A stretch of 64,000 nucleotides of DNA from Tsukamurella paurometabola (lineage in GTDB: Bacteria > Actinomycetota > Actinomycetes > Mycobacteriales > Mycobacteriaceae), in NCBI RefSeq assembly GCF_900631615.1, contig NZ_LR131273.1:1178001-1242000 (forward strand), given 5' to 3'. The position numbers and the translations under genes were made by a program. A model generated the notes under the pieces. The model did not search any database. It worked only from the letters and a program-made list of their open reading frames with translations, and had not been told where the DNA came from. Positions 29,655 to 48,726 of the stretch are shown here, one piece after another. The stretch's first letter is position 1. Each line of letters opens with the position of its first letter.

Positions 29655-30296
29655 CTACCGGGCGCGGGCCGAGCCGCTCCCCCGCTTGGCGCGGTCGAGC
29701 GTGGCGAGCGACTTCTTCGCCGCGGCCAGTTCCGCCTGCAGCGCCGCGACACGATCGGCGGCGGCGTCGCGGGCGGCGGACAGCACGTCGTCGACCGCGG
29801 CGAGCGCCTCCTTGTCGCCGAGCCCGGCGAGGGCCTTGTGCACGGCGGGCAGGGGGATCTCCTGGGCGCCGGAGGGCTTCTGCGCGTTCCGCGTGACCTT
29901 GAGCGTGGCCGCGTTGTCGGCGCCCACGTACACGGTGATCGCGACCGAACGGGCGGACCGGCCCGAGGCCTTCGTGCCCGTCGTGGCCGGAGCCTTCGCG
30001 GCCGGCGACTTCGCCGGGGAGGCCTTCGCAGCGGCCTGCTGCTTCGCGGCCCGTTTCACCGGCTTCGGCTGCTTGGTGGCGCGCAGTTCCCGTGCGTCGT
30101 AGGGCAACTGGTCGTCGACGCCCGTCGGCTTGACGGTGACCACCGCACCGTCGACGTCGACCACGCGGGCGGAGGCACCGGCGTCGAGCCCGAGGCTCGG
30201 CACGCCCTCGATGAGGTAGACCAGCGGCTTCCTCCCCTCCGCCAGGGCCGCCGCGTAGCGCTCGAGATCGTCGGCGGTCAGGGTCTGCTCGGCCAT
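29655..30296 (-). CDS. DUF6319-like protein, translationally coupled to the kinase
   Basis: A 213-aa protein. Residues 5-80 (LTADDLERYAAALAEGRKPL, then VYLIEGVPSLGLDAGASARV) are a small beta-rich domain like that of DUF6319 proteins. A Lys/Ala/Pro linker (about 78-112) leads to a second domain with AITVYVGADNAATLKVTRNA and a C-terminal coiled coil (about 170-205). Function is unknown; the basic linker could bind nucleic acid or membranes. The ATG overlaps the kinase stop by one base (TGATG), so the two are co-translated and it may be a kinase substrate or partner. The family name is from memory and tentative. Confidence 0.7.
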   Translation of the reverse strand: MAEQTLTADDLERYAAALAEGRKPLVYLIEGVPSLGLDAGASARVVDVDGAVVTVKPTGVDDQLPYDARELRATKQPKPVKRAAKQQAAAKASPAKSPAAKAPATTGTKASGRSARSVAITVYVGADNAATLKVTRNAQKPSGAQEIPLPAVHKALAGLGDKEALAAVDDVLSAARDAAADRVAALQAELAAAKKSLATLDRAKRGSGSARAR

Positions 30297-32386
30297 CACT
30301 TGATTCCCTTCACGAGTGCGGGGACCACCGACTGCTCGATCGTGTCGATCGCCAGCGGACCTCCGTACAGGAGCGCGTCCACGCCGTTCGTCTTGTCCAC
30401 GATGATGATCGGTACACCGTAGGTCAGCGACGACGGGACCCCGTCGAAGCCGCCGTTGCCGCCCGCGGGATCCGTGCGCGCCACGACCGTCCGGTCCACG
30501 GAGCTCGAGTTCACCGCCTTGTACAGATCGTTCGAGGACAGGGGCAGCCAGGACCCGGTCCCGTCGACGGGGGTCTGGGTGGCGAAACCGATCTGCCCCA
30601 GCAGCTGCAGCGCGTTCGCGGTACCACCGGCGAGCTTCGTCGCCTTACCGTCGTAATGCACGATGTCGACCTTCTTGCCCGCGAACTCCGGGTGCGCCGA
30701 GCGCAGCGCGGTGATGCGGCCCTCGTAGGTCTTCTTCACGGCCTCGGCGCGGTCCTTCGCGCCGAGGGCGGCCGCGATGAACGCGAGCTGCTGCTGCCAG
30801 GTCCACCCGGCCCGGCCCTCGTCGGGGACCGCGATCGCGCGGCCACCCGCGAGCGACTTGAGGTCCTTGACCTTGTCGGCGGCGTCCGGATCGGTGTCCA
30901 GGATCAGGTCCGGGCCGGCCTTCTCGATCACCGACTTGTCCGGGTTGGTGGAGGTGCCGGCGGTCGGCACGGACGACAGCGCGGGAACCCACGACGGCAG
31001 TTCCGATTTCGGGCCGTTCGCCCCGGCGACGACCTCGAAGCCGAGGGCGGCGACGAGCTCGGCGTCGCCCGCGCCGAGCGCGACGATCCGCTGCGGCCGG
31101 TCGGTGAGCTCGGTGGAGCCGTTCACATCCGTCACGGTGCGGGCCGTCCACGCGTCGAGGGCCGGGCGGCCGTCGTCGCCTCCCCCGCCCCGGAGGATCA
31201 CGACGGCGAGCACCACGGCCAGGATCACGACGAGCGCCGCGGCGCCACCGATCAGCAGCTTCGTGCGGTTCTTCGGCGTCGTTCCCGCACCACCGTGCAC
31301 GGGCATCGACGGCGAGCTCGGCCCCATCGGGCCTCCCGGTGTCGCCGGGCCACCGGGGCCGCGCGGTCCGGTGGGACCGACCGGGCCGAGCAGCCCCGTC
31401 GGGGCACCGGGCGGCAGGCCGTGCGCGCCGGGTGCGGGCGACGGAGGGCCGGGCTGGTTGAATCCGGTCGCGAGGGCCGGATTCGACGGTGTTCCCTGCC
31501 AGTTGACGCCCTGCGGCGCCGTGGGCGGCGCGATCCCGGCAGCGCCCGACATGCGGCGCGCGGCGGCGGCCAGGGCGTCGGCGAACTCGCCGGCGGTGCC
31601 GAACCGGTCCGCGGGGTTCTTCGCCATGGCGCGGCCGAGCACGTGGTCGATCTCCGGCGACAGGTCGGGACGCTTGAGCCGCACGCTGGGCGGGTTCTGG
31701 CTGATGTGCGCCAGCATGAGCTGGCCCGAGATGGTGGTGGTGAAGGGCGGTGCGCCGGTGAGCAGGACGACGGTGGCGCAGGCGAGCGAGTAGACGTCGG
31801 CGCGGTGGTCCACGGCGTGGCCGAGGAGCGCCTCGGGAGCGGTGTACGCCAGCGTGCCGACGACGGTGCCGGCCTGGGTGTTCTGCCCGACCTCGGTCTG
31901 GGCGGCACCGATGCCGAAGTCGGCGAGCTTGACCTGCTCGCCGCGGCGGCCGCGGTCGACGAGGAAGTTGGCGGGTTTGACGTCCCGGTGCAGGATGCCG
32001 TGCTGGTGCGCGTAATCGAGGGCGTCGGCGACCTGCTCGACCACGGAGACGGTCCGGTCCAGGCTGAAGGGGCCCTCCCGCTGCACCGTGGACGCGAGGT
32101 TGCCGCCCTCCACGAGCTCCATCGCGATCCACAGGTGCCCGTCGGACTCGCCGCGGTCGTAGACGTCCACGATGTGCGGGTGCTTGAGCCCGGCGATCAG
32201 GTCGGCCTCGCGGTCGAAGCGGGCACGCACCGACGGGTCGGCCGACAGCTGGGTCTGCAACACCTTGAGCGCGACGGACCGCGGCAGCGTGCGGTGCCGG
32301 ACGCGGTACACCGTGCCCATGCCTCCGGTACCGAGGACCGACTCGATCACGTACCCCGCGATCGATTCACCGGGTTCCGACGCCAC
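30296..32386 (-). CDS. Receptor Ser/Thr protein kinase with a FecB/TroA-type extracellular binding domain
   Basis: A 696-aa membrane kinase. The cytoplasmic kinase domain (about residues 11-270) is complete: GTGGMGTVY, Lys41 (VALKVL), HRDVKPANFL with Asp135, DFG at 156-158, and GTLAYTAPEAL after a Thr-rich activation loop. A Pro/Gly linker with collagen-like G-P-x repeats (about 315-360) leads to one transmembrane helix (377-398). The outside part (about 405-696) is a full helical-backbone substrate-binding domain like those of siderophore/metal ABC importers: PQRIVALGAGDAELVAALGF, SVIEKAGPDLILDTD, and QLAFIAAALGAKDRAEAV. GGAGG lies seven bases before GTG 32386 (GTG 32392 is too close). It follows eccE by 66 bases, so it is probably transcribed with the ESX genes and could couple an iron or siderophore signal to them. 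Confidence 0.9.
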   Translation of the reverse strand: MASEPGESIAGYVIESVLGTGGMGTVYRVRHRTLPRSVALKVLQTQLSADPSVRARFDREADLIAGLKHPHIVDVYDRGESDGHLWIAMELVEGGNLASTVQREGPFSLDRTVSVVEQVADALDYAHQHGILHRDVKPANFLVDRGRRGEQVKLADFGIGAAQTEVGQNTQAGTVVGTLAYTAPEALLGHAVDHRADVYSLACATVVLLTGAPPFTTTISGQLMLAHISQNPPSVRLKRPDLSPEIDHVLGRAMAKNPADRFGTAGEFADALAAAARRMSGAAGIAPPTAPQGVNWQGTPSNPALATGFNQPGPPSPAPGAHGLPPGAPTGLLGPVGPTGPRGPGGPATPGGPMGPSSPSMPVHGGAGTTPKNRTKLLIGGAAALVVILAVVLAVVILRGGGGDDGRPALDAWTARTVTDVNGSTELTDRPQRIVALGAGDAELVAALGFEVVAGANGPKSELPSWVPALSSVPTAGTSTNPDKSVIEKAGPDLILDTDPDAADKVKDLKSLAGGRAIAVPDEGRAGWTWQQQLAFIAAALGAKDRAEAVKKTYEGRITALRSAHPEFAGKKVDIVHYDGKATKLAGGTANALQLLGQIGFATQTPVDGTGSWLPLSSNDLYKAVNSSSVDRTVVARTDPAGGNGGFDGVPSSLTYGVPIIIVDKTNGVDALLYGGPLAIDTIEQSVVPALVKGIK

Positions 32387-32452
32387 GAACACACCTCCGC
32401 TCCTGCACGTGTACAGCGGTAAGAATCTACCGCGATGCAGGTTGCCCGCCGC

Positions 32453-34687
32453 TTAACGTGAGATTGGCGGCTCGTCGGAGGGCGGGCGCTCGCCCGTCTT
32501 GCCCCAGCGGGGCGCGGTCGGCGGCTGCAGGGGACGGCGCCGCGGGCCGCGCTCGTCCTGGCCCGCGGTGGGCCGCACCCACCGGTCCCCGACCTGCTTG
32601 CGCTGGGCGCCGCTGCCCCGCTCGTAGGGCGGCGGCGGCAGCGGCCGCACCGGGCGGGGCGGGCGCTGCGGCGGCGCGGCCGGGGGCACCACCGGGTACT
32701 GCGGCGCCGCCGGGTGCTGCGGCGCGGAAGGCTGCGCAGCTGGGGGCTGCGCCCCGGGCGGCTGCGGCGCGGGCCCGGACGGAGCCGCGGCGGGCGCGCC
32801 GGGGGCCTGGGCCGCGGGTGCGGTCGGGTACGGCGCGGGGGCCTGCGGGGCGCCCGGTTGCGCGTGCCGGCCACCCGGCGGAACGGGGACCTGCGGAGCG
32901 GCCGCGGGCCCGGCGACGGGCGACGGCGCGACGGCGGGCCGCGGCGCGGTGGATCCCGGGGCGAGCCGCGGCGGCGCGGGCACCTGGCGAGGCTGGCGGT
33001 GCACGGGCTGCGGGCCCGTGGCGGCGATCGGCTGCGCCTGCGCATCGCAGTACCGCAGTTCCTCGTCGGTCGGGTTGAGGACCACGTCGAACGGGGCGCG
33101 GCGGCCGATGCGCACGCGCACGGCCGACGGCGCGACCTGCTCGACCACCAGATCCGCATTCGCCCGCTGCGGAGCGCTGCCCGGCGCCCGCAGGGTGAGC
33201 ATGGTCCGCTCGGGCACCGCGTCGGCCGGCGCACCGTCGAAGACGGTGATGTCGGCCGGGCGGCCACCGGGCCCCTCGGCGATCCGGAAACGCGCCGGGT
33301 CGGCCAGGGTCGCGGCCAGGGTGGCCCACTGCGCCGGACGGTCGGTGTGCACCGCGACGGACGCACCCGCGCCGACGGAGCGCAGCAGCACCAGTTGCAG
33401 CGGGATCAGCTCGGTCGCGAACTCGACGATCAGCGTCTCGGGGACGGGCGAGCCGTCGAACAGGGGCAGCGCGACGGCATCGGGTCCGGACACGCCCCAG
33501 ACCGGCCCCGCGGGACCGACGGGGATCTCGACCGCACCGAGGTCGTCCAGCGGGGTGGACGGCAGGTCCACGACGCTGGACCCGCCGCCCGGCAGTGTGG
33601 CCCGGGCGAGCTCCAGCTGGCGGCCCGGCATCGGGACGAGCGCATCGTCGAGGTTGTCGACGATCGGCACCGCGGTGTCGTAGCGGACCAGTCCGCTGAT
33701 CTCCACGGGCGCCTGGGCGTGGGCCTTGCGCATGCGCAGCACCACGGAGGTGCTGTCGCTGTCGAGGCCCCACCACCGGTCGAGCTTCTCCGTGGAGGTG
33801 CGCACCGGATCGACGAGGTAGGTGGTGGCGAACTCGGCACCGTGCTCGATGTTCTGCCAGTTCTCCGTGCCGCCCAGCGGATCCGCGCCGAACGTGAGGC
33901 GGGAGTCGAGCAGCGCGAGCTCCTGGGCCGGGAGCACCCGGGCCCGGATCAGGCGCTCCTGCAGCCGCTGTTCGAGCCGACGGGTCGCGGCCATGAGGGC
34001 CTTGGGGCCCGCCGTGCGCGACGGTCCGCGGCGGACGATGCCCTCGAGGTTGCGGCGGGTGTTGACGCGCAGGATCAGCCAGGTGGACCGCTCGGCCATC
34101 GCGGCGTAGAAGCGGACCCCCTGCGAGTACGAGGCGCGGTAGGCCGGCCCGGGCGGCACCCGCCGTCCGGCGGAGGCCACGTCGATGTCCACGTCCAACC
34201 CGTACTGCGTCATCATCGTCGCGAGCAGGTCCAGCGGTACTGTCTCCGCGGCGAACGCACGGCCCTCACGCAGGCGGGTCTCGGCGGGATCGGCGGTGAG
34301 CTCGATCGCCGAGACCAGCTCGAAGCCGTCGCCCTGCCGCACGCCGACACCGTCGACGTCGATGACGCCGCCGGGGATGCCCCCGGCCGCGCGGCGCCGC
34401 CGGCGCAGGAACCGGGCCCGAGCACCGAGCTTCTCGCTGAGCACCGTGCCGTGCACGGAGACGAAGGCGACCAGAGCGCCCGCCACGACGAGCGCGATGA
34501 CCGCCCACAGCGGCCAGCGGCCACCGGCCACGGCGACCAGGCTCGCCGACAGCACCGCCCAGACCAGTGCGCGGCGCAACGAGATCCGGATGCCGACCGG
34601 CCGGCGCAGCCGCGCGACGTCGGGGTGCGTGGGGACGTCGGCGGTCGCCGCGGCACCCGCCGGTGGGCCCGTCAGGGTCTCGGTCAT
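32453..34687 (-). CDS. eccE: Type VII secretion protein EccE with a long Pro-rich tail
   Basis: A 744-aa EccE, the outer-ring subunit of the ESX membrane complex. Two hydrophobic helices near residues 38-75 anchor it, followed by the cytoplasmic EccE domain (WLILRVNTRRNLEGIVRRGP and WGLDSDSTSVVLRMR). After about residue 555 the chain becomes a 190-residue Pro/Ala/Gln-rich tail ending basic, much longer than in mycobacterial EccE (about 330-460 aa overall). The tail may be a docking or scaffolding arm. The ATG (34687) overlaps the mycP stop by four bases (ATGA), behind a GGGGAGG ribosome site. Confidence 0.9.
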   Translation of the reverse strand: MTETLTGPPAGAAATADVPTHPDVARLRRPVGIRISLRRALVWAVLSASLVAVAGGRWPLWAVIALVVAGALVAFVSVHGTVLSEKLGARARFLRRRRRAAGGIPGGVIDVDGVGVRQGDGFELVSAIELTADPAETRLREGRAFAAETVPLDLLATMMTQYGLDVDIDVASAGRRVPPGPAYRASYSQGVRFYAAMAERSTWLILRVNTRRNLEGIVRRGPSRTAGPKALMAATRRLEQRLQERLIRARVLPAQELALLDSRLTFGADPLGGTENWQNIEHGAEFATTYLVDPVRTSTEKLDRWWGLDSDSTSVVLRMRKAHAQAPVEISGLVRYDTAVPIVDNLDDALVPMPGRQLELARATLPGGGSSVVDLPSTPLDDLGAVEIPVGPAGPVWGVSGPDAVALPLFDGSPVPETLIVEFATELIPLQLVLLRSVGAGASVAVHTDRPAQWATLAATLADPARFRIAEGPGGRPADITVFDGAPADAVPERTMLTLRAPGSAPQRANADLVVEQVAPSAVRVRIGRRAPFDVVLNPTDEELRYCDAQAQPIAATGPQPVHRQPRQVPAPPRLAPGSTAPRPAVAPSPVAGPAAAPQVPVPPGGRHAQPGAPQAPAPYPTAPAAQAPGAPAAAPSGPAPQPPGAQPPAAQPSAPQHPAAPQYPVVPPAAPPQRPPRPVRPLPPPPYERGSGAQRKQVGDRWVRPTAGQDERGPRRRPLQPPTAPRWGKTGERPPSDEPPISR

Positions 34688-36108
34688 CGTGTCCTCCCCT
34701 TCCGCCCGGGCCGCGTCAACGCGACCGCGCCGGCGATCACCACGAGCGCCACGGCACCGGCGCCCGCCACGATCGCGGCGGTCCGCCGCGGCCGGGTGTC
34801 GGGCTCGGGGGGCGGCGGCGGCACCAGGAGCTCGTCGACCGACTGCGGGTCGATGTCCGCGTCGATGTCGGGGACCTTCGCCGTCAGGGCCGCCACCGGA
34901 TCGATGAGGCCACGGCCCACCTTGTTGTCCGTGCCGCGGCCGGGCGCGTGCGCCGTGGCCACGAGCCGCGCGGCCGCCTGCGTGGCCGACAGCTGCGGGT
35001 ACCGCGATCGCACCAGGGCCGCCGCGCCCGCGGCGTAGGCCGCTGCGAACTCGGGACCGGCGAAGGGCACGAGGTTCCGCTCGACGGGGGCGCCGTTGAC
35101 CACGCCGTCGCCGCCCCGGGAGCTCAGGGAGACGATGCCCGCGCCGGGCGCGGAGACGTCGAGCCAGGGGCCGTTGAGCGATCCGGGCAGGGGCGTGCCC
35201 TCCGCGGTGGTGGCACCCACCGAGAGCACCTGCGCGTCGAACCAGTTCGGGGTGGCGACGGTGGTCACCTGCCGCCAGCCGCGCGGATCGTCGGGCCGAC
35301 CGGGGTCCGGGTCCGGGTTCGCCTTGCAGTCGTTCGCGCCGACGGTGCCGCCCTGCCGGTCGGTCGCGCCCGCGCCGACCACGACCAGTGCGTCCTTGGC
35401 GCGCAACGCGTACGCCACGGCGCCGCCGATCTCGCGCTGGCGGAACTGATTGTCGGCGGCCATGCACACCGGCTCGGGCACGACGATCACCTTGGCGCCG
35501 CGGTTGGCGGCGCGCACGACGGCGCGGGCGATGCTGCGGGCGTTCACCGCGGCGCGGCCGAGGTTGGGGTCCGCATCGTCCGCGGGGCTGTTCTGCAGGG
35601 AGAACCCCGCGGAGTCCACGCGGATCGAGATGATGCGCGCGTCCGGGGCGACTCCCACGAAGCCGTCACCGGCTGCGGGCTGCGCGCCCACGATGCCCGC
35701 GACCAACGTGCCGGTGGAGTCGCAGTCCACGAGCCCGCGGTCGCCGGCCACCATGTTGTCGCCCGCACCGTCGAGGCCCCGCAGGCGCGCCTGGGGACGC
35801 ACTCCCGTGCTCAGGACCGCAACGGTGACCCCGGCGCCGGTGGAGAACTTGTGCGCCTCCTCGATCCGGAGGGTGTTCGCCGGAGCGGGGGCCGCCGCGA
35901 GGTTCGAGTTCGGCAACACACCGGGCTCGACGCAGCGCGGATTGTTGTTGCGCAACGGGCGCTCCGGGCCGTCGGTGTCCGGCGGCGCACCGCCGATGTC
36001 GGCGACGGGCGGCACCACGGCGCCGGAGACGGCGGGGGCCCAGGTGCCCGCCACGACGACGGTGACGGCAGCGGCGGCGACCGCGGCCGCCCTCGGGATA
36101 CGGAGCAC
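34684..36108 (-). CDS. mycP: Mycosin MycP with all catalytic residues replaced (pseudoprotease)
   Basis: A 474-aa subtilisin-like mycosin: signal peptide (1-30), N-terminal extension wrapping the protease domain (about 80-400), Pro-rich linker and a C-terminal transmembrane helix (about 445-465). The fold is well kept but the active site is gone. The catalytic Asp position reads VAVLSTGV (Ser100), the His position DCDSTGT (Thr132), the oxyanion Asn position VVVGAGA (Ala248) and the Ser position AGPEF (Glu353). The frame is intact. Mycosins are also needed structurally for ESX complex stability independently of proteolysis, which this protein may still provide. GTG 36108 was chosen by its AGGGG-type site, 14 bases after the eccD stop. 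Confidence 0.9.
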   Translation of the reverse strand: MLRIPRAAAVAAAAVTVVVAGTWAPAVSGAVVPPVADIGGAPPDTDGPERPLRNNNPRCVEPGVLPNSNLAAAPAPANTLRIEEAHKFSTGAGVTVAVLSTGVRPQARLRGLDGAGDNMVAGDRGLVDCDSTGTLVAGIVGAQPAAGDGFVGVAPDARIISIRVDSAGFSLQNSPADDADPNLGRAAVNARSIARAVVRAANRGAKVIVVPEPVCMAADNQFRQREIGGAVAYALRAKDALVVVGAGATDRQGGTVGANDCKANPDPDPGRPDDPRGWRQVTTVATPNWFDAQVLSVGATTAEGTPLPGSLNGPWLDVSAPGAGIVSLSSRGGDGVVNGAPVERNLVPFAGPEFAAAYAAGAAALVRSRYPQLSATQAAARLVATAHAPGRGTDNKVGRGLIDPVAALTAKVPDIDADIDPQSVDELLVPPPPPEPDTRPRRTAAIVAGAGAVALVVIAGAVALTRPGRKGRTR

Positions 36109-36122
36109 GGACCCCAGCCCCT

Positions 36123-37691
36123 CTACTTCAGGAACGACAGGTCGAGTTCGCGCATCGCGGCGAACAGGCGGGTGCACCAGAGCGCGAGCATGACGACCGC
36201 GAAGATCGCCAGCTTCTCGCCGGCCTCGATGCGGCCCAGCAGCCGCGCCGAGAGCGGGCGCCCGTGGCCGCCGCGGTCGGTGGAGACGCGGTCCGCGAGC
36301 AGCAGGCCGCCCGCGCCGAAGCTCGCGAGCACGGCGGCGCTGAGCACGATCACGATGAGGCGGCCCAGATCCGAGTCGAGTGCGCCCACGAGGACGACCG
36401 CCAGGCCCGCCGCGATCACGAAGCCCGCCACGAAGAAGACGGTGGCGTGCACCCGATCGTCGAGCGTGCGGCCGCGCAGCACACAGATCACCGAGGTCAG
36501 GGCGGCGATCGCCACCTCGCCCCAGAAGTAGTGGCTGTGCGGCACGATCACGGTCAGTGCGGAGACCACGAGGATCCCGGCGATCGCGACGTAGAAACCG
36601 GTGAGCAGCTTGGCCGCGGTGCGGGCCTTGCGCTCGAGGCCGGTGTTCTCCTGCGCGCGGGCCAGCTCCGTGGTGCTCTCGTCGTCGAAGGTGTCCACGT
36701 GGTACGCCGCGTCGAGTTCGCTGCGGTCGATGTCCTCGCCGGGCGGCGGGAGCGGATCCGGCCGGACACCGGCGAGCATCAGCGCCCAGCCCTGCGCCCA
36801 GTTCGCCAGCAGCAGGCCACCGATCACGCCGAGGGCGGGGATCGCCGGCCGGCCGAGCGGGGTGTACGCGAACAGCGCGCTCGCGACCACCGCGGCCGCG
36901 GCGCCGAGCCCGAGGGCCGCGAGCACCGCGGCGCCCAGGCGGCTCGCGCGGCCCAGCACGACGATGCCGATGAGCGCGAAGGTCGAGCCGGTGAGAACGT
37001 TCGCGGCGGTGAAGGCACCGTCGACCCCGCCGTCCGGGGGGATGAGCACGAACCCGGCGGAGAACAGCACCGGGACCGCGGCCAGTTGCAGCGCGTACGC
37101 CACCTGCGGGGCGCGGTACTGCCGATCCGCGGACAGGGCGGCGAGCACCACGGCGATCGAGGCGAGGGCCGCCACCGGGAACCACCACAGCACGCTCGAA
37201 TGCGCGAACCACGCGATGAGCACGAGCGCCGCGAAGACGGTCGCGCCGAGCACCAGCGCGAGCAGTCCCAGTGCGCGGGCCGTGGCCGATTCGAACCGGC
37301 GGAAGCGCTGCCGGCAGAACTCCTGGATCGCGTCGGCGGTGCTCTCGATGAGCGGCCGGAACGTCTGCGCGGAGAAGGTCTCCGACAGGATCAGCCGATC
37401 CCCGTCGAGCACGCCCGCATCGGCCAGGGACTTGTCGCGGGCCAGCTGGGTGCCGCCCTCCCGCGCGAAGGTCCAGGCGCCGGTCGTCGAGAAGTCGTGA
37501 TCCGGGAAGATCTGCTCGAGCCCGGGGATCACCGAGTCCATCACGACGGACAGCCGCCGGCGGGCCAACAGGCTCCGCTCGACGGAGTTCTCACCGACTT
37601 CGACCAGGACGCGGACCTGCTCGGGGACGGCGGATCGCCCGGGGCCCGCGTTCTCGGTTCCGGCGGGCTCCGGGGTGATCGGGAAGACCAT
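36123..37691 (-). CDS. eccD: Type VII secretion membrane channel protein EccD
   Basis: A 522-aa EccD. The N-terminal ubiquitin-like domain (about 24-112, with VRVLVEVGENSVERSLLARR) is cytoplasmic. Eleven hydrophobic helices follow between residues 138 and 515, with a long cytoplasmic loop after helix 6 (PPPGEDIDRSELDAAYHVDT). EccD dimers line the ESX pore chamber. The gene begins six bases after the EspI-like stop and is followed by mycP after 14 bases, so the order is eccD-mycP-eccE as in mycobacterial ESX-3. Confidence 0.93.
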   Translation of the reverse strand: MVFPITPEPAGTENAGPGRSAVPEQVRVLVEVGENSVERSLLARRRLSVVMDSVIPGLEQIFPDHDFSTTGAWTFAREGGTQLARDKSLADAGVLDGDRLILSETFSAQTFRPLIESTADAIQEFCRQRFRRFESATARALGLLALVLGATVFAALVLIAWFAHSSVLWWFPVAALASIAVVLAALSADRQYRAPQVAYALQLAAVPVLFSAGFVLIPPDGGVDGAFTAANVLTGSTFALIGIVVLGRASRLGAAVLAALGLGAAAAVVASALFAYTPLGRPAIPALGVIGGLLLANWAQGWALMLAGVRPDPLPPPGEDIDRSELDAAYHVDTFDDESTTELARAQENTGLERKARTAAKLLTGFYVAIAGILVVSALTVIVPHSHYFWGEVAIAALTSVICVLRGRTLDDRVHATVFFVAGFVIAAGLAVVLVGALDSDLGRLIVIVLSAAVLASFGAGGLLLADRVSTDRGGHGRPLSARLLGRIEAGEKLAIFAVVMLALWCTRLFAAMRELDLSFLK

Positions 37692-37697
37692 CTGCCG

Positions 37698-39443
37698 TCA
37701 GCGTCCCTCTGTCGTGCGCACCTGCTGCAACTCGGCGAGCTTCTGGGCGGCCGGCGGCTCGTAGCCGGAGTTGAAGCCGTCCGCCAGGTCCGCGGCGAGT
37801 TCCTCGAAGGCGCGCACCGTGCGCTTGCGGAGCAGAGTGATGTCGATCGGCTGGTCCGAATCGAGGTGCGGGTCGTACGGGATCTCGTGGACGCGCAGCT
37901 TCTGCCCCGCGCGGAAGAGCTCGTCGAACTGTTCGACCGAGACGCTGCCGCGGCGCTTGGTGTGGTTGATGACCACGATGGTGTTCGCGAGCAGGCCGTG
38001 CCAGCCGTGGTGCCGGAGCCAGTCGATCGTCGCGGCCACCTTGCGCACGCCACGGGTGGTGGCCGACGCGGGCAGGATCAGCGCCGAGGAGATCTCGAGC
38101 ACGCCGGTGCCGGTCTGGGTCTGAAGGCCGCGGCCGGCGTCGACCAGCGCGAGGCTGTAGTGCGGGCGGAAGATCGAGTACAGGTCGAGCACGTCGTCGT
38201 AGTCGGTCACGTCGCGGCCGTTGAAGCGCCACGGTGTGGGCAGCACGTGCAGGTTGGTCGAGGTCACCGCGAGGTGCTTGTCCACCTGGTTGCGGTCCGA
38301 GAGGTCGCTCTGCTGGATCAGCGTGCGGGCCGTCGAACCGCCCTGGTGCCACGCCGTCACCTGGTCGAGGTCGCCGCCGTCGGGGTCGAGGTCGAGTGCG
38401 ACCACGTTGTCGGCGCGGGTCTGCTCGAGGATCTGGCCGAGCACACCCACGAGCAGCGTGCCCCCGGCGTTGTCGGCGAAGACGCTGGTCACGTGGAACT
38501 TGTTCTTCGGAACGCGGATGCGGTGCACGAGCTCGGCGTGCTCCTGATCGTTGGCGCTCGGCCCCACGTCGAGGCCCATCTTGCGCAGCCAGGCGCGCCA
38601 GCCGGAGACGCGGACCGCCGCGTCCGAGAACCGGATCTGCTGATTGAAGGACGACGAGGCGGTCGACATCGGGGCCGAGAGCGACTCGCCCATCGGGCGC
38701 ATCGGGGCCTGCTGGTGCTGCGGGACCATCGGCGCGCCCTGCACCGGGCCGGGCGCCTGGCCGAACGGCTGCGGCGCGGCCGGGCGATGGATCTGGCCCG
38801 ACGCGGTCGGGAACTGCCCGGTCTGCGGGGCGCCCTGGAACGGGGCGTGCACCTGCCCGTTCTGCACCTGGGCGTGCTGCGCCGCGGCGGGCACGAAGCC
38901 GTTCTGGCCGCCCTGCCACTGCTGCTGCACCTGCTGCGGCTGCGGCACGGGGGCGGGTGCGGGCTTGGTCGCCTGCGGGGCCGACGGTGCCGCGGGCGCC
39001 TCGGCCTTGGGGGTCGCGGCGGGAGCTTCCGGCGTGGCCGAGTCGTCCTTCGCAGCATCGGTCTTCGCAGCATCGGCCTTCGCGGCATCGGTCGCGCCGG
39101 ACGGTGCGGCACCGGACGAGCCGGAGGCGGCCGTATCGGTGTCGTCGTCGACGACGGCCGGCTGCTCCGCAGTGGGCCGCTCGTCCGCGGCGATCACCAC
39201 CGGCGCGGGGGCGGGGGCGGTGGGCACGGCCGCGGATCCGTCGGCCTCGTCGACCTCGGGCAGCTCCGGCTCCTCCCACTCGCCGCTCGCGGGCTCGGAC
39301 AGCGGACCACCCGCGGGGGCGGTCGGCCGCACGACCGGGACGGCGGCATCGGTCGAGGGCAGGATCGCCGCCGCGGAGTCACTCTCGTCGTGACTGGTTT
39401 GCGGTACGAAAGGCACCCGAACGTTAGTGGCTGCGTCGCTCAT
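37698..39443 (-). CDS. EspI-like ESX-associated MinD/ParA-fold protein lacking a Walker A lysine
   Basis: A 581-aa protein. Residues 1-265 are disordered and Ala/Pro/Gln-rich with repeated AAKADAAKTDAAK blocks, a feature of EspI. Residues 275-570 have the MinD/ParA fold: VTSVFADNAGGTLLVGVLGQ, then VVALDLDPDGGDL, LALVDAGRGLQTQTG and TIVVINHTKRRG. The P-loop, normally KGGVGKTT, reads FADNAGGTL (322-330) with no lysine, so ATP binding is doubtful. EspI modulates ESX-1 according to ATP in M. tuberculosis; mycobacterial ESX-3 loci lack this gene between espG and eccD. The ATG at 39443 has GAGAGG upstream. Confidence 0.82.
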   Translation of the reverse strand: MSDAATNVRVPFVPQTSHDESDSAAAILPSTDAAVPVVRPTAPAGGPLSEPASGEWEEPELPEVDEADGSAAVPTAPAPAPVVIAADERPTAEQPAVVDDDTDTAASGSSGAAPSGATDAAKADAAKTDAAKDDSATPEAPAATPKAEAPAAPSAPQATKPAPAPVPQPQQVQQQWQGGQNGFVPAAAQHAQVQNGQVHAPFQGAPQTGQFPTASGQIHRPAAPQPFGQAPGPVQGAPMVPQHQQAPMRPMGESLSAPMSTASSSFNQQIRFSDAAVRVSGWRAWLRKMGLDVGPSANDQEHAELVHRIRVPKNKFHVTSVFADNAGGTLLVGVLGQILEQTRADNVVALDLDPDGGDLDQVTAWHQGGSTARTLIQQSDLSDRNQVDKHLAVTSTNLHVLPTPWRFNGRDVTDYDDVLDLYSIFRPHYSLALVDAGRGLQTQTGTGVLEISSALILPASATTRGVRKVAATIDWLRHHGWHGLLANTIVVINHTKRRGSVSVEQFDELFRAGQKLRVHEIPYDPHLDSDQPIDITLLRKRTVRAFEELAADLADGFNSGYEPPAAQKLAELQQVRTTEGR

Positions 39444-39521
39444 GGACTGCACCTCTCTTGCTGGAAGAATCTTTTGCAGACTAATACATACCCAGGTCAG
39501 ACGACCAGTGGGGGCGCGCTT

Positions 39522-40391
39522 TCAGTTTGTTGTATCGAACCACCCGCGGCATCCACCCCGCTCGACGAGCGCGGCGATGCCCTCGGAGAATCGCCGACGG
39601 GTTCCCGGGCTGAGGGTGACGTCGAGGACACCGTGCGAACCGCGTTCAGTGGTCGACAGGACGCGGCCGGCGACCGTGTCCATCACGCCGACCGCCCACC
39701 CGGCCTGCGTCCGGACTCCGCTGGGATCCGTACGGTGATAGACGATCTCGGCCCGGCGTCCGGTGTATCGCGCTGCGTCGAGAAGGATGTCGACGGTCTG
39801 CTGCGACAGATCGTGCTCGCGCAGCCGGCTGCGGATCGCGCGCTCACCGCGGGGGCCCGCGACCTGCGGGTCGAACGCGGCGACGACCTCCGCCAACTCA
39901 CCGGCCTCGAGGGTCAGCGATTCGAAGTCGGCGGGATCGCTCGCCCCGAGCACCCGCCACAGAGGTTCGACCACGGTCGATTCGAAATCCTCGCGGTCGG
40001 TCCGGAAGCCCTGCACGGTGCACTGATCGTCGTTGCGGAGGGCCACGACCACCAGCTCGTCGCGGCGCACGACCGCGCCGCGGAGCACGGCGTCACCGTC
40101 GAAGACGCGGATCGCGATTTCGGCGGCCGGTGCCTGAAGCGCGCGCAGCCACTGCTTGACCTGGGGATCGACGGACCCGTTCGCATCGACCAGCCCGGCG
40201 TCGACGAGGCCGGGCAGGACGGCGAGGTCCACCACCAGCTGATCGTCGGGCCGGTACACGTTCGGATGCACCGCCAGCACCACGGGCGCCAGTTCGCTGA
40301 CGTCCGCGAGCCGCATCAGCAGGAGCAGCTCATCGATGTCGGCGGCGAAGGCGGACAGCTTCGCCGCCGGTTCCTCACGCAGCAGGGCCAT
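39522..40391 (-). CDS. espG: EspG, ESX-specific chaperone for PE/PPE proteins
   Basis: A 289-aa EspG-family protein. The long beta-sheet region (EIAIRVFDGDAVLRGAVVRR, DELVVVALRNDDQCTVQGFR) and the C-terminal helical bundle ending RRRFSEGIAALVERGGCRGW match the family. EspG binds the tip of the PPE protein of a PE-PPE dimer and keeps it soluble until export. Its position directly after the two esx genes is that of espG3. AGGAGAGG precedes the ATG. The 78 bases to the next gene include an A/T-rich TTTTGCAGACTAATAC stretch that may add a promoter. Confidence 0.88.
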   Translation of the reverse strand: MALLREEPAAKLSAFAADIDELLLLMRLADVSELAPVVLAVHPNVYRPDDQLVVDLAVLPGLVDAGLVDANGSVDPQVKQWLRALQAPAAEIAIRVFDGDAVLRGAVVRRDELVVVALRNDDQCTVQGFRTDREDFESTVVEPLWRVLGASDPADFESLTLEAGELAEVVAAFDPQVAGPRGERAIRSRLREHDLSQQTVDILLDAARYTGRRAEIVYHRTDPSGVRTQAGWAVGVMDTVAGRVLSTTERGSHGVLDVTLSPGTRRRFSEGIAALVERGGCRGWFDTTN

Positions 40392-42536: not shown

Positions 42537-42824
42537 TCAGAACTGCACGGCGTTATCGGCCATGATGTACGTCGAGGCGACGGCCGAGAGGCTCACGGCG
42601 TACTGCGCGACCTCGGCGTGATCGATGATCGAGGTCGCCAGGAAGTTGGCCGCGTGCGCGGCCGAACTCGCCGAGACCAGCAGCGACACGGCATCGGCAC
42701 CCGCGGGCACGACAGCCCCGAGAGCGCCGGCGGCACCACCGATCGAACCCGCGGTGGTGGCGACGTTCGCCATCACTTCGTTGGTTCCCGCCAACAGTTG
42801 AATAGGCGCCACGTTCAGGCCCAC
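42537..42824 (-). CDS. PE family protein
   Basis: A 95-aa PE protein consisting only of the two-helix PE domain. The second helix ends in YIMAD, the YxxxD general secretion signal of type VII substrates. GVVPAGADAVSLL-like text at residues 38-50 matches the PE turn region. It starts at GTG 42824 behind GGAGGGAAG. It opens the PE-PPE-esx-esx-espG group, and the 83 bases upstream hold a probable internal promoter. Confidence 0.86.
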   Translation of the reverse strand: MGLNVAPIQLLAGTNEVMANVATTAGSIGGAAGALGAVVPAGADAVSLLVSASSAAHAANFLATSIIDHAEVAQYAVSLSAVASTYIMADNAVQF

Positions 42825-42907: not shown

Positions 42908-45900
42908 TCATCCCCAAACCTCGTCGTCGGACTCCGCTTCGTCCCTGCGCACGCCGTTCCAGGCCACCTGGACGACGTCCGACGGCGCGCCCCGTCCCGG
43001 ATGGAACCGGCCCCGGCCGGGAACACCGAACCGTTGCCCGCGTTCACCTGCGATGTTCACGTTGAACTTGTCCGCGGAGAGGGCCAGCGCCATCGAGCTG
43101 TGGGTGTCGAGGAACTGGATCAACGGGTCCGAGCTCGCCTTGTACAGGTATTCGGAGTCGTTGAGCACCACGATCACGTGGAAGCCCCGGATCACGCCGT
43201 CATTCATCAGCTTGACGGTCTGCGTGAGCGGGTTCGTGCGGTCGCCGCGCGCGACGACGGCGTCGTAGTCGTCGATGATGAGGAAGATCTCGGGGCCGGT
43301 CCACCAGTCGCGGCGCGCGAGCGCGGCACTGTCGGCGGAGTCCGGCACCCTGCGGTAGGTCACCCGCTCGGGATCCGTCTCCCCATCGCCCATCCACTCC
43401 ACGAGCTTGTCCTGCCAACGCCGCAGGAAGTCGTAGAGATCGGAGCCGTGCAGCCCGAGGTTCTTCGGGTTCGGCGCGAACGCGCCGCGGTGCACGCGCT
43501 TGGGATCGAGGAGCGCGATGGCACCGTCGTCGATCGTCGGGTACCGGCGGCTGATCGCCTCGATGAGGGTGTGCACGAAGGCGGACCGGCCGGAACCGCT
43601 CTCGCCGACGACGTACATGTGCGCCTCGCGACCGAAGTCCGCGACGGCGGGGCCGGCGTCGGTCTCCCGGACTCCGAAGGGCAGCCGGACACGCTCGCGG
43701 TCGCTCGCCTCGGCGGGCAGTACGGAGAACAGGTCGTCCTGCAGGACCGATGCGGGCAGCGCCAGCAGCTTCGGCGCCGCGGCCCCGGAGGTGTTGGCGC
43801 GGCGGATCCGCTCCACGACCTCCTCGATGCCGGCACTGAGCGTGTCCGGCGAGGCGTCGCCGTCGGCGCGGGGCAGCGCGACGAGGGCGAGCAGCTCCCG
43901 GTCGGTCGTGATCACGTGGCCGGCCCGATCGGGCACCGCCTTGTTCCGCTGCGAGTTCACCACGGACATGTCGTAGCTCGCGGTCGAGACGCGGCCCTCG
44001 ACGATCGTGTGCATGTGGCTCGCGAGGCCGCGCAGCACGGTGTTGCGGGCCGTGGTGATGACGAAGTGGACGCCGTAGTTCAGCGCGCCCGACGCGAGCG
44101 CCTCGAGCACGGCCACCTTGTCCTCGAAGACCCCGCCCTCGGTCACCGCGGCGTCGAAGCCGTCGATCACGATGAAGACGTCGCCGAAGGCGTCCTCGGT
44201 GATGACCTCGGCGCCGGGGTCGCTGCGCAGTCGCCGGTACTCCGCCATCGAGTTCACGCGGTACTTGCGGAAGAGCTTGACGCGCTGGTCGATCAGGTCC
44301 GCCATCTGCGAGACGATCCGGTTGATCGCGTCCTCCTCGGACCGGGTCGCGATCCGGGAGACGTGCGGGAGGTCCTCGAGCCGCATCCAGCCGCCGCCGG
44401 TGTAGTCGACGACGAAGAACTGCACCTGCTCCGGCGAGTGGGTGAGCGCGAGGGAGGTCACCAGCGTCATGGCGGCGGTGGTCTTGCCCTTCTGCGGCGC
44501 ACCGTAGATGAGCACGTTGCCCTGGCCGCCCGACAGATCCAGCTCCCACACGGGCTGCTGGTGCTTGGCCGGGTCGTCGAAGACACCGAACGGCGTCTTC
44601 AGCGTGGCGGGCGTGGTCACCGCGGGCGCGACCCACTCGTCGGCGGCGAGCGACGGTGCCAGGATGTCCAGCGTCGTCGAGGTGAGCTCCGGGAGCCACG
44701 GCTTGTACGCCGGTCGGGCCGGCGCCTTGGTGAGCAGTTCCTTGACCACCGTGAAGACGGTGGGCGCGGCGAGCAGTTCCTCCTCGGTGCGCACGATCTC
44801 GTCGTCCTCGACGATCTCCGCCTCGAGGTCGGGGATGTCGATCCGGCGCGCGGTGAAACCGCGGGAGGAGAGGTCGTCCGCGGTGGGCTGCACGATCTCC
44901 CGCACGACGGGTTCCGGCGCCGCCTCGGGCGGGAAGTAGGGCTTGCCGGTGAAACCGGCGTAGAACCGGATCAGCTCGTCCTCGTGGAGCGTCTTGATGA
45001 GGCCGTTGCCGGGCTTGCCGGGCAGGTTCTTCGCGTCCGGCACACCGATCACCGCGCGCGAGTCTCCGGCGGTGCCGGTGCGAAGGGCGATGTGGTAGTG
45101 GATGTTCGACTCGAGTCCGCGGGAGCGGGCCATCTCGGCGTTCTGCGAGGCGAGCAACAGGTGCACGCCGACCGAGCGTCCCACGCGGCCGATCTGGCTG
45201 AAGATGTTCACGAACTCCGGTTTGGCCTCCAGGAGCTCGGTGTACTCGTCGATCAGCACCAGCAGGGCGGGCATGGGCTCGAGGTCCGGGCAGTGGCCCG
45301 ACTCCCGGGCCTTCTCGTACTCGGTGAGGCCGATGATGTTGGACGACGGGTAGCGCGCCGCGGCGCTGTCGAACAGCTGCTGGCGGCGCTTGAGCTCGCC
45401 GGTGATGACCTCCATCATGCGGTCGACCATGCTCTCGGACTTCTCGAGGTTGGTGACCACCGCGGCGACGTGCGGGATGTCCTCCATGCCCTGGTACGTG
45501 GCACCGCCCTTGAAGTCGACGAGGAGGAGGTTGAGCATCGACGGCGAATGGAAGAGGCAGGCGTCGAGGACCAGGCAGCGCAGGAACTCCGACTTGCCGG
45601 AGCCCGAGGTGCCGATCATCTCGCCGTGCGGGCCGGTGCCGCCCTGGCTGGCCTCGCGCATGTTCAGGAAGATCCGCGTGCCATCGGGCCCGAAGCCGAT
45701 CGGGAAGTTGAGCCGGCGCGGGTCGTCGAACCGCTTGATGCGCTGCCAGAAGTCGACCACGTCGATCGCGCCGGGATCGTCGACCTGGACCAGGTTGGCC
45801 CAATCCCGCCCGGTGTCCTGACGCTCCTTCGACAGCAGCGACGCCGTGGTCTCGAGTTCCCACCGGGCGAGCTTGCGCGCGTTGGTGTGTGCGTCGATGA

Positions 45901-47128
45901 GGTCGAGGTGGTCGGCCCGGGCGATCTCCTTGGGCTCCTCCAGCGGGAGATCCGAGTCCCACCGCGTGACGATGCCCGCCTGGTCCACGTCGAGCAGGAC
46001 CGCGTGCGGGAAGGAGTCGATCACGCCGTCGGGCGGCGACATCAGGATCCAGGTGACATCGGCCAGCGAGGCGATCGCCTGGTCCGTCATCCGCGCCCGC
46101 TCCGCGGATTCGACGATCACCACGGTGTGCCGGGTGCGACCGGACACCTCGGACTCGGTGGTGAACGGCCGGGAGTAGTCGACGATGCGGTCGGCCTCGG
46201 CCACCGGTTGCTCGTCGCCGCCCGACAGCTCGTCGAGGAACTCCGTCCAGTTGCCGTAGATCATGCGGCGCGAGCCGAGCGCGTCGATGAGCGACGGGTG
46301 CTGCACCTGCGGAAGCCATTTCAGGTACTCCCACCGCCCGCCGTCCGGGGTGTCCGCGACGACGGCGATGCGCAGCCGGTCCGGGCCGTGGGTGATCGCG
46401 AGGTGGTTCAGCATGGCGCGCACCATTCCCGCCGATCGCTCGGGATCGCCGCCCACGCCCAGGACGGGCACCGTGCGCAGCGTGAACGCCAGGGGCATGT
46501 CCGCGATGGTCGAGTGGGTGTGCAGGAACTTGACGGTCTCGGTCCACTGCACCGGGTCGAGGAACTCGCCGTCGGGCGCCTCCGGCGTGAGCAGCTTGGC
46601 CTTCGGCACGATCCGGCCGCGACCGTACCGTGCGGCGGTGAAGCGCGCCTTGCGCTCGGCGTCACCGCCGTTGACCTCCCACATCCGCTCCGTGCCGATG
46701 AGCGAGCCGGCGACGGCCGGATCGGGGTAGGCGTGAGCGAGTGCGTCGAAGTAGTTGCGGCCGCGGGAGAGCGCCTTCTCCCGTGAGGCCCCGATCGAGC
46801 GGCTCGCCTGCTTGCGGTCGTGCAGCAGCTGCGCCTTCGACTTGCTGCCGCTGCCGCCCGGGCCGCCGCCCATGTACGCGAACATGCCGAACAGCAGCAT
46901 CATCGGCATGAGCAGCATCACCGGGTTGAAGCCGCGGTTGAGGCGGATCATCATGAACAGCATGCCGAGCACGGCGACCACCATGATGACGGGCATCATC
47001 ACGGTGCGCCACTTGCCGGGTGGGTCGACCTCGTCGATGGTGTCCGGCGTGCGGACCTCCACCTCCTTCTTGATGACCCGGGGCTCCTTCTTCGGGTGGA
47101 GCGGGGGCTCGAAGACCTGCCTACTCAC
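42908..47128 (-). CDS. eccC: Type VII secretion ATPase EccC (single chain, three ATPase domains)
   Basis: A 1406-aa FtsK/SpoIIIE-type motor. Two transmembrane helices (about 43-62 and 68-86) and a DUF domain precede three ATPase domains. Domain 1 is intact (Walker A GTSGSGKS at 506-513, Walker B with Asp627-Glu628 in LLVLIDEYTE). Domain 2 has GAPQKGKT (876-883) but IDGF in Walker B. Domain 3 has GESGSGRS (1175-1182), with Arg for Lys. Domain 1 gives the essential ATPase activity and domain 3 docks Esx substrates by their C-terminus. GTG 47128 overlaps the eccB stop by one base (TAGTG), behind AAGGGGAA. Confidence 0.94.
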   Translation of the reverse strand: MSRQVFEPPLHPKKEPRVIKKEVEVRTPDTIDEVDPPGKWRTVMMPVIMVVAVLGMLFMMIRLNRGFNPVMLLMPMMLLFGMFAYMGGGPGGSGSKSKAQLLHDRKQASRSIGASREKALSRGRNYFDALAHAYPDPAVAGSLIGTERMWEVNGGDAERKARFTAARYGRGRIVPKAKLLTPEAPDGEFLDPVQWTETVKFLHTHSTIADMPLAFTLRTVPVLGVGGDPERSAGMVRAMLNHLAITHGPDRLRIAVVADTPDGGRWEYLKWLPQVQHPSLIDALGSRRMIYGNWTEFLDELSGGDEQPVAEADRIVDYSRPFTTESEVSGRTRHTVVIVESAERARMTDQAIASLADVTWILMSPPDGVIDSFPHAVLLDVDQAGIVTRWDSDLPLEEPKEIARADHLDLIDAHTNARKLARWELETTASLLSKERQDTGRDWANLVQVDDPGAIDVVDFWQRIKRFDDPRRLNFPIGFGPDGTRIFLNMREASQGGTGPHGEMIGTSGSGKSEFLRCLVLDACLFHSPSMLNLLLVDFKGGATYQGMEDIPHVAAVVTNLEKSESMVDRMMEVITGELKRRQQLFDSAAARYPSSNIIGLTEYEKARESGHCPDLEPMPALLVLIDEYTELLEAKPEFVNIFSQIGRVGRSVGVHLLLASQNAEMARSRGLESNIHYHIALRTGTAGDSRAVIGVPDAKNLPGKPGNGLIKTLHEDELIRFYAGFTGKPYFPPEAAPEPVVREIVQPTADDLSSRGFTARRIDIPDLEAEIVEDDEIVRTEEELLAAPTVFTVVKELLTKAPARPAYKPWLPELTSTTLDILAPSLAADEWVAPAVTTPATLKTPFGVFDDPAKHQQPVWELDLSGGQGNVLIYGAPQKGKTTAAMTLVTSLALTHSPEQVQFFVVDYTGGGWMRLEDLPHVSRIATRSEEDAINRIVSQMADLIDQRVKLFRKYRVNSMAEYRRLRSDPGAEVITEDAFGDVFIVIDGFDAAVTEGGVFEDKVAVLEALASGALNYGVHFVITTARNTVLRGLASHMHTIVEGRVSTASYDMSVVNSQRNKAVPDRAGHVITTDRELLALVALPRADGDASPDTLSAGIEEVVERIRRANTSGAAAPKLLALPASVLQDDLFSVLPAEASDRERVRLPFGVRETDAGPAVADFGREAHMYVVGESGSGRSAFVHTLIEAISRRYPTIDDGAIALLDPKRVHRGAFAPNPKNLGLHGSDLYDFLRRWQDKLVEWMGDGETDPERVTYRRVPDSADSAALARRDWWTGPEIFLIIDDYDAVVARGDRTNPLTQTVKLMNDGVIRGFHVIVVLNDSEYLYKASSDPLIQFLDTHSSMALALSADKFNVNIAGERGQRFGVPGRGRFHPGRGAPSDVVQVAWNGVRRDEAESDDEVWG

Positions 47129-48726
47129 TACTTCCCCTTCGGGTCGAACTTCGCGACGACCGGGTCGTCCGCGCCACCGTCGTGCTTGATGGAAGCGCTG
47201 GCCTTGGACAGGGTCGGGCCCTGCGCGAAAAGGCTGATGATCGTCCACGGCGCGGGCACCGGGTTGCTCAGGCCGAGGGCCTTCGCGGACGAGCCCGGTT
47301 CGGTGGAGCCCTGGTCGTCGATCCCGTACCGGATGCCCGTGTCCGCGATCCAGAACTCACCGCTGTGCTCGCGCGAGTCCTTCGCGGAGCCGGTCGCGTA
47401 GACGTACCGCCCACTGTTCGCGGGCAGGTAGACGTCGTCGGCGATGGTGCCCGCGGAGCCCGGGGCTCCGATCAGGGAGATCCGGGCGGCGTTCTGCTCC
47501 CCGGTGAGGGGCAGTGTGCCCGCGACGACCACCCGCTGATCGGCCGTCGGCGCGTCACCGTCGTGCGACCAGGTCATGCAGGTCACGGGGTCGCTCGTGG
47601 CGTCCTCGACCCGGACCTTCCCGGTCGGGAAGTGGTCGACGGCGATCCGCCCGCCCACCTTGGGCCACTGGTTCGCTTTCGACGCCTCCGTCTCGACGAC
47701 GCCGCTCTTGACGGGCGAGACGGTCTGCAGGATCGCCGCGGCGGTCTGGCTGACCTGCTGGATGCCGTCGGCCGCCACCACGTAGTAGGTCCACCCGCCG
47801 TCGACCGTGGCGACGCGGAGTGTGGTTCCCACGAGCAGCTTCTCGGTGTTCGGGAAGCGCACGGGCTTACCGAGATCCGTGATCTGCGGTACGTCGATCG
47901 GCTCGCGCGCGGCGAGCGCGTTGAACAGGCCCGACGACATCGGGATGACCCGCTGGTCGATGCCGATGCCCAGGGCCTCGCGGATCGCCGAGTTGCCCAG
48001 GTCCAGCCGGGCGCGGGCGACCACCCCGTCGTCGGAGTACACGAGCCACGTCTGGTTGTCGAAGGCCACGACCCGGGCGCGGTCGCCCATCAGCTCGTCG
48101 GTGCCGTCGGCGGGAGTCAGCGGCCCGCCGATGACGGTGACCTTCACGGCCGAGGTGGCGGTGGTCGGCAGCCCGGTCGAGGGGTCGAGCGGTACGGCCG
48201 ATCCGGTGGCGGTGGTGTCGCACACCGCCCATTGCGAGAGCCGGCTGGACGAGTTCCGGATCACCGTGGGGGCGTACGGGATACCCACCATCGGACCGCG
48301 CGGGAGTTTCTCGATCTCGCCCGACTTCGCCAGCACCGGCCTCGCGGGGGAACCGATGATGAGCTGGCCGGAGACCACGTTGGGGATCGGGCTCAGCGCG
48401 TCGCCCACCTTGACGTACAGGGCGCCGGTCTGGCTGTCCTGGATGATGTCCCCGTCGCCGACCTTGCCGGCGGGGAAGATCACGGCGGCGATCACACAGC
48501 CGAGCGCCACGACGAGTCCCACGGCGATCGCCATGTACAGCGGCGATCCCTGGAACTTCTTGACGTCGTCGATCCACCGCGTGTCGCGGCGCACGAGGGC
48601 TTCCTCGTTGCGCCGCTGCAGGTAGGCCTCGCCCGACTTCTGGTACTTGGAGGTGAGGCGGAAGCCGCGGACCCGTTCCTGCAGGCCCGACGCCGGATTC
48701 GACGGTTCCGGGGTGGTCTCAGCCAT
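47128..48726 (-). CDS. eccB: Type VII secretion protein EccB
   Basis: A 532-aa EccB. A short cytoplasmic N-terminus (to about residue 60, with QERVRGFRLTSKYQKSGEAY typical of EccB) and one transmembrane helix (about 63-85) are followed by a large periplasmic domain of repeated beta modules (LYVKVGDALSPIPNVVSGQL, VYLPANSGRYVYATG). EccB caps the ESX pore on the outer face. Cys172 or so and a second periplasmic Cys (VTCMTW) could form the family's disulfide. It overlaps eccA by eight bases and eccC by one. Confidence 0.93.
   Translation of the reverse strand: MAETTPEPSNPASGLQERVRGFRLTSKYQKSGEAYLQRRNEEALVRRDTRWIDDVKKFQGSPLYMAIAVGLVVALGCVIAAVIFPAGKVGDGDIIQDSQTGALYVKVGDALSPIPNVVSGQLIIGSPARPVLAKSGEIEKLPRGPMVGIPYAPTVIRNSSSRLSQWAVCDTTATGSAVPLDPSTGLPTTATSAVKVTVIGGPLTPADGTDELMGDRARVVAFDNQTWLVYSDDGVVARARLDLGNSAIREALGIGIDQRVIPMSSGLFNALAAREPIDVPQITDLGKPVRFPNTEKLLVGTTLRVATVDGGWTYYVVAADGIQQVSQTAAAILQTVSPVKSGVVETEASKANQWPKVGGRIAVDHFPTGKVRVEDATSDPVTCMTWSHDGDAPTADQRVVVAGTLPLTGEQNAARISLIGAPGSAGTIADDVYLPANSGRYVYATGSAKDSREHSGEFWIADTGIRYGIDDQGSTEPGSSAKALGLSNPVPAPWTIISLFAQGPTLSKASASIKHDGGADDPVVAKFDPKGK

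Follow-up and report, generated by a model that had tools for sequence, protein, structure and literature searches.

The stretch of DNA analysed here (the window) comprises 64,000 nucleotides of Tsukamurella paurometabola contig NZ_LR131273.1 (positions 1,178,001 to 1,242,000) and carries, on its minus strand at 30296..32386, a gene for a PknQ-type receptor serine/threonine (Ser/Thr) kinase adjoining an ESX (type VII) secretion cluster. The explanation that we consider probable, though well short of certain, is that the product is a receptor Ser/Thr kinase of the PknQ family, whose outside domain of the siderophore-binding type has lost its docking to a transporter and serves to let a ligand tune the kinase inside the cell. 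For most bacterial Ser/Thr receptor kinases it is unknown what the outside domain senses, and here such a domain belongs to a family with directly testable ligands; its recurrent neighbours are ESX secretion loci, the inputs of which are likewise poorly known. Tsukamurella offers a natural comparison, since the same kinase occurs in this genus with and without an adjoining ESX block.

Architecture of the kinase and its outside domain

The open frame of the kinase gene spans 30296-32392 on the minus strand and encodes 698 amino acids (aa) when counted from the first GTG, at 32392. The GTG at 32386, which is preceded by GGAGG and yields 696 aa, is the likelier start and agrees with the boundaries given, with no strand named, in an earlier interpretation made from the DNA letters alone (the sequence-only reading). 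The cytoplasmic kinase domain (31598..32353; residues 14-265, Pfam Pkinase, E = 2.5e-51) possesses the invariant Lys43 and Glu62 as well as the HRD-K-N and DFG motifs; the gene is intact and the kinase domain, as judged by these conserved residues, is catalytically complete. On the same strand it is followed by a poorly conserved Gly/Pro-rich, collagen-like juxtamembrane linker (31268..31537), a single hydrophobic membrane helix read directly off the sequence (31193..31258; approximately residues 379-400), and the outside domain (30299..31159). Pfam assigned the C-terminal part of the protein to Peripla_BP_2 (residues 436-624, E = 5e-7) with 29.8 bits, above the curated cut-off of 27.5. Domain search and frame reading thus confirm what the sequence-only reading had described, namely a complete kinase domain, a membrane helix and a FecB/TroA-like domain in one frame; its collagen-like linker holds for the Gly/Pro-rich stretch of Tsukamurella, but not for the mycobacterial relatives, where the linker is mainly proline-rich and poorly conserved. 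Among the NCBIfam models, the PknB/PASTA kinase model NF033483 covered the kinase part alone (residues 14-281), scoring 282 bits where the cut-off is 450; the outside part was matched by models of iron-chelate binding proteins, every one below its own cut-off. The protein shares its kinase domain family and layout with PASTA kinases such as PknB, but has a different sensor domain, no PASTA repeats having been detected in the Pfam and NCBIfam scans.

The window's single sequence already matched iron-compound and siderophore binders of the PDB (best E = 1.8e-6), and a profile of 42 fused domains retrieved 52 distinct PDB sequences at E <= 1e-5, headed by the siderophore-binding SirA (6e-27); most of the 52 are named after iron or siderophore binding, about eight having generic names only. 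AlphaFold2 predicted two alpha/beta lobes connected by long helices (predicted local distance difference test score 87.2, predicted template modelling score 0.87), and as modelled the outside domain is of the class III substrate-binding fold (FecB/FepB/SirA-like), with its two lobes and long helix. Across the set of fused domains, Trp and Arg-Asp positions show no or almost no variation. Mycobacterium tuberculosis FecB, according to passages of PMC10553834, binds ferric carboxymycobactin and heme; this and other class III iron-chelate binders share fold and sequence family with the outside domain but are stand-alone chains, and differ from it further in that the scored relatives keep an N-lobe Glu and the C-terminal part of the fused domain diverges.

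Class III binding proteins are described in the text of PMC3741162 as contacting ATP-binding cassette (ABC) permeases through two glutamates. At the N-lobe position the window's domain has Ser, and Glu was present in a single fused domain of 42 (locus L108), the other 41 having Ser, Ala, Gly, Thr or Asn; of 23 stand-alone relatives examined, one lacks the PDLI motif, and the 22 with the motif, which represent approximately eight lineages of the binding-domain tree and include many orthologues, have Glu in 21 cases and Asp in one. The residue scored lies seven before the PDLI motif, which we take, from the alignment, to be the place of the N-lobe docking Glu. On this alignment the comparison shows the putative N-lobe contact with permeases to be lost in the fused domains, an observation new here. 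The loss fits a receptor rather than part of a transporter, the window's domain lacking the N-lobe Glu expected of a class III ABC substrate-binding protein, and it strengthens the plausible proposal of the sequence-only reading that the protein is a sensor, a reading which as a whole is partly supported.

Relationship to PknQ and distribution of the fusion

The architecture is not new to science. PknQ (MUP011), encoded by Mycobacterium ulcerans plasmid pMUM001, was described in 2014 as a cytosolic kinase with a membrane helix and an outside 'FepB-like iron transporter module' (PMC4238996), contrary to the statement of the sequence-only reading that no receptor kinase with this fold was known to it. 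Passages of the same paper report that PknQ is an active kinase binding MupFHA, an FHA protein of the same plasmid, and that it is activated by Fe2+ and inhibited by Fe3+ and hemin; hemin inhibited the isolated kinase domain and the full protein, and the inhibition by Fe3+ was measured on the isolated domain (PMC4238996). The terms ESX, type VII and Tsukamurella are absent from its main text, and no earlier description of the Tsukamurella gene or of an ESX link was found in the open-access literature, one elsewhere being possible. A solute-binding protein that sets the activity of the Ser/Thr kinase PknG in mycobacteria has reportedly also been described (PMC6069109).

A plasmid search recovered the same fusion on pMUM001, pRAW and others; the pMUM001 fusion encodes a 660-aa kinase, consistent with MUP011/PknQ, with FHA and DivIVA genes close by. 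In the PknG study, the two partners are reportedly separate proteins and the kinase is of another type than PknQ. PknQ and the window's protein have in common the kinase, the membrane helix, the outside FepB-like domain and the clade of their fused binding domains, but PknQ is encoded on a plasmid, close to FHA and DivIVA genes, whereas the Tsukamurella gene lies beside an ESX or ROK gene with no FHA gene found nearby. Tsukamurella and mycobacterial fusions (PknQ itself being outside this comparison) are approximately 30% identical in the outside domain and 50% in the kinase.

In the binding-domain tree (44 rows), all 21 fused domains formed one clade (support 100/98) against 23 stand-alone proteins, split into a Tsukamurella half and a mycobacterial half with PknQ inside the latter; this phylogeny shows a single-clade origin for the fused binding domain.

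The outside domain was found in all 16 Tsukamurella genomes searched (own genome included), the other 15 copies having 50-90% identity, and is preceded by the kinase at all 16 loci, in the same frame in 15 and in a broken frame in G009; this presence, together with the profile matches, rules out a chance domain call. A wide spread across actinobacteria is ruled out by two profile searches. Among 401 genomes of the GTDB family, 28 (16 Tsukamurella and 12 Mycobacterium or Mycolicibacterium) matched at E <= 4.1e-97, the next best match reaching 8.6e-39, and the remaining matches mostly lie in open frames of stand-alone size. When 394 genomes of the class were searched, the top eight matches (E <= 1.1e-98) all belonged to Tsukamurella or Mycobacterium, followed by one at 7e-41; weaker matches were mostly of stand-alone size, with three frames (565, 616 and 668 aa; E ~1e-38) left uninspected. 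Both profiles include some of the matched sequences, which widens these E-value gaps. A search of 301 genomes of the family that used just the window's domain as query gave matches at E <= 1e-20 in 23 of them, all belonging to Tsukamurella or Mycobacterium.

The locus scan yielded at least 42 loci, of which six are from Tsukamurella and 36 are mycobacterial (L074-L109), some plasmid-borne and some on short contigs. In 39 of these 42 loci the HRD and DFG motifs share an open frame with the binding domain; the remaining three have broken frames (L071, L103) or lie at a contig edge (L096). At the Tsukamurella sp. PLM1 locus (L055/L071, genome G009) the kinase frame is broken and ESX is absent; this genome is 83% complete and a sequencing error is possible.

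Linkage to ESX loci and competing explanations

Eleven of the 16 Tsukamurella genomes have ESX genes upstream of the kinase. They comprise the genome of the window, nine others and G001, where approximately 1.7 kb containing small open frames (L049 11800-13530) separates the tail of eccE from the kinase as an insertion, read by eye. The contig stops at the kinase in G008 and G012. For G009, G010 and G011, the 8 to 12 kb preceding the kinase contained no ESX gene. These three have a ROK regulator upstream of the kinase, directly adjoining it in the ESX-less G010 and G011 and separated from it by a DUF7373 gene in G009 only. The sole EccC match of G009 and G011 is a high-scoring second kind that groups with ESX-4-like loci, and G010 has that match and, on a different contig, two pieces that adjoin each other and score below the cut-off; with G009 incomplete and G011 in approximately 890 contigs, a loss of ESX elsewhere in these two genomes is unproven. 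The window has the same ROK-family regulator gene (56109..57419, minus), there on the far side of the ESX block. At that end of the block lies a DUF7373 gene (54875..56107, plus), whose product has, as read by eye, a lipoprotein-like signal. The block together with this gene (32453-56107) thus sits between ROK gene and kinase. The ROK gene is followed by an ABC ATPase and an AlkZ-like gene in an order common to the window, G009 and G010; no ABC ATPase was found near the ROK gene in G011. The history of the ESX block may comprise one insertion, or more than one loss.

The eccE gene is immediately upstream of the kinase, 66 bases separating its stop codon from the GTG at 32386, and its identity is supported by the EccE model TIGR03923 (199.6 bits against 108); the synteny and the gap given in the sequence-only reading are both correct. 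A conserved element, TTAAG(C/T)-N19-GGTA(C/G)ATT (32424..32456, minus), contains the eccE stop codon in the window and precedes the kinase in all 17 Tsukamurella sequences, ESX-less ones included. As it is kept with or without ESX, the simplest reading is that the element is the kinase's own promoter, independent of ESX. An inverted repeat, GCGGTA-N6-TACCGC (32416-32433), overlaps the element and is present in only part of the Tsukamurella sequences. An ESX component would be present only where an ESX cluster is, and the gene occurs without one at the site in G009 (as a broken copy), G010 and G011; the kinase is not an ESX component.

Of the 36 mycobacterial loci, 30 have a DUF7373 gene no more than 1.5 kb upstream of the kinase; PknH_C-like genes were found in 25 and FHA genes in 23. 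ESX genes were found in 12 loci, a single one in three of them (L076, L087, L097), and none was found in the other 24, several of which are short. The association of orthologues with ESX loci, on which the sequence-only reading depended, therefore stands for these 12 but not for the 24, nor for three of the 16 Tsukamurella genomes. Twenty ESX stretches, rather than random ones, were also scanned: no DUF7373, FHA or PknH_C gene was found in the 17 without an adjoining fusion kinase, DUF7373 and FHA matches were found in the two that adjoin one (L181, L184), and L191, which ends inside a fusion gene, was set aside. The adjacent cluster is ESX-3 in L083 (EccB3 695 bits, EccB5 325) and ESX-1 in G223 (EccB1-type chain 695, EccB3 248), the best chain of the latter, 5cyu, being taken as EccB1 because named EccB1 chains rank behind it at 574 and 558. 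Overall, relatives adjoin ESX-3 in L083, L080, L092 and G341, and ESX-1 in G154 and G223.

Eight of the 12 Mycobacterium genomes have an EccC gene no more than 35 kb from the fusion, five of them no more than 15 kb; as for the remaining four, G290 has the two apart on a single contig, G252 and G301 have them on different contigs, and the contig of G163 is short. By our estimate, which takes 5.5 Mb to contain about four EccC genes, chance alone would place a gene within 35 kb of EccC in approximately 5% of cases, but the genomes compared are related; as a weak control, two other kinases in each of G154 and G223 also lie within 35 kb of EccC, none of them within 15 kb. At least four of the 23 mycobacterial plasmids listed as carrying the fusion also bear ESX, from their overlap with 60 of 108 ESX records. 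The proximity of kinase and ESX is a recurrent but non-obligatory linkage, and no proof of function. A tentative extension, to which we give a minor chance, is that kinase and transport-dead iron-chelate binder were joined once into a mobile receptor module, which came to lie repeatedly beside ESX systems of different kinds (an ancestral one in Tsukamurella; in mycobacteria, ESX-1 and ESX-3) and on plasmids that bear ESX, bringing a common external input to type VII secretion through DUF7373 lipoproteins and FHA proteins.

According to the receptor explanation favoured here, the outside domain would descend from a siderophore-type substrate-binding protein and hang outside the membrane on one helix. 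A ligand, most likely of the iron-chelate or heme class, would bind it and, by closing the lobes or pairing receptors, might tune the inside kinase, which in mycobacteria may act via FHA proteins and in Tsukamurella via some other partner; where ESX is a neighbour, the kinase probably contributes to adjusting secretion or the state of the surface to outside conditions. Several observations weigh against this explanation. Most PDB alignments end by approximately position 235 of the 287 in the profile, the last part being unlike known siderophore binders; the kinase-domain tree (33 domains) groups the seven fused ones weakly (56/24); and two mycobacterial FHA queries found no FHA gene in six Tsukamurella loci. 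Of the two docking sites, the comparison covers the N-lobe one, and the fused domain of L108 retains the Glu there. Lastly, as the isolated kinase domain of PknQ is itself inhibited, the effects of hemin and Fe3+ are no evidence of sensing by the outside domain.

The strongest competitor, possible but clearly less likely, is that the outside domain has lost small-molecule binding and acts as a protein platform, for instance for the DUF7373 lipoprotein, or reads cell-wall crowding. The frequency of DUF7373 upstream of the mycobacterial kinases would fit this, as would the DUF7373 gene of the window, the one that adjoins the kinase in the ESX-less G009 (split between frames) and the divergent C-terminal part; the two lobes, however, are both predicted to be intact, and the near-invariant Trp and Arg-Asp are what a retained cleft would need.

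A dedicated iron-siderophore sensor of ESX-3, as proposed in the sequence-only reading, is improbable, even though the outside domain is related to siderophore binders and four relatives stand beside ESX-3. The window's cluster is not ESX-3: its EccC falls outside the chromosomal ESX-3 clade (100/100) and joins the split EccC of ESX-1 (80/86), a grouping flagged by the program as a possible false long-branch join, in a tree that contained no ESX-P3 plasmid cluster. Its EccB is equidistant from EccB3 (223.7 bits) and EccB5 (222.4), with the shorter EccB1 PDB chains at 171.9; MycP is nearest to MycP1 (325.7 bits; MycP5 298.5), and EspG to EspG1 (51.3; EspG3 44.5). The Newton-Foot 2016 survey assigns ESX-4ev and an ancestral ESX-1 to T. 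paurometabola and, beyond mycobacteria, ESX-3 to Segniliparus alone; its plasmid clusters ESX-P1 to -P5 include espI (PMC4791881), and the EspI-like gene of the window is weaker evidence against ESX-3 because ESX-P3 is among them. Further arguments against an ESX-3 sensor are the three Tsukamurella genomes without ESX at the site, the ESX-1 neighbours in G154 and G223, and the 24 mycobacterial loci in which no ESX gene was found. A weak scan, in which the whole genome gave four places against three in the control, detected no iron-box-like site at up to three mismatches in the window, with a consensus that we take to be that of the iron box.

A tethered uptake protein that delivers iron chelates to an ABC permease and is controlled through the fused kinase is very improbable despite its membership of the siderophore-binding superfamily, as the N-lobe docking Glu is absent from 41 of the 42 fused domains and no ABC permease was found among the neighbouring genes scanned, the rest of the window not having been scanned for permeases.

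The ESX cluster and further features of the window

On the minus strand, the gene order is eccA, eccB, eccC, PE, PPE, two Esx-like genes, espG, an EspI-like gene, eccD, mycP, eccE, the kinase, a 214-aa gene and a nitroreductase gene. The eccA gene (48719..50653, start approximate) matched the EccA model below its cut-off, and is followed by eccB and eccC (42908..48726), PE (42537-42824) and PPE (41148-42524), the last two named from their T. tyrosinosolvens counterparts. The two Esx-like genes (40457-40762 and 40792-41097), both encoding 101 aa, were named by position and size, and lie ahead of espG (39522..40391). The next protein (37698..39452) was not matched by any Pfam model at E <= 1; it is approximately 33% identical, over its C-terminal half, to a mycobacterial CbiA/ParA-like protein adjoining eccD, and EspI is presumably its proper name. 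The remaining genes of the cluster are eccD (36123..37691), mycP (34684..36120, start approximate) and eccE (32453..34684, start approximate). Beyond the kinase, the start of the gene for the 214-aa protein (29655..30299, minus) overlaps the kinase stop, and this gene adjoins the kinase in all 16 Tsukamurella loci.

Between eccA and the DUF7373 gene, 50650-54045 (minus) encodes an 1131-aa protein with a weak DUF5632 match below the cut-off; a hypothetical protein of similar size occupies the same place in T. tyrosinosolvens, and this may be an ESX-associated protein. A T. tyrosinosolvens record labelled plasmid 12 (L149, NZ_LR134454.1) contains this ESX cluster together with housekeeping-type genes, and may be a mislabelled chromosomal piece. 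In the Tsukamurella genome G004, the EccC match beside the kinase (C1:333298-334809) contains a TGA within it and falls short of the family cut-off. A second DUF7373-like gene was located by tblastn at 14253-15392 (plus) in the window.

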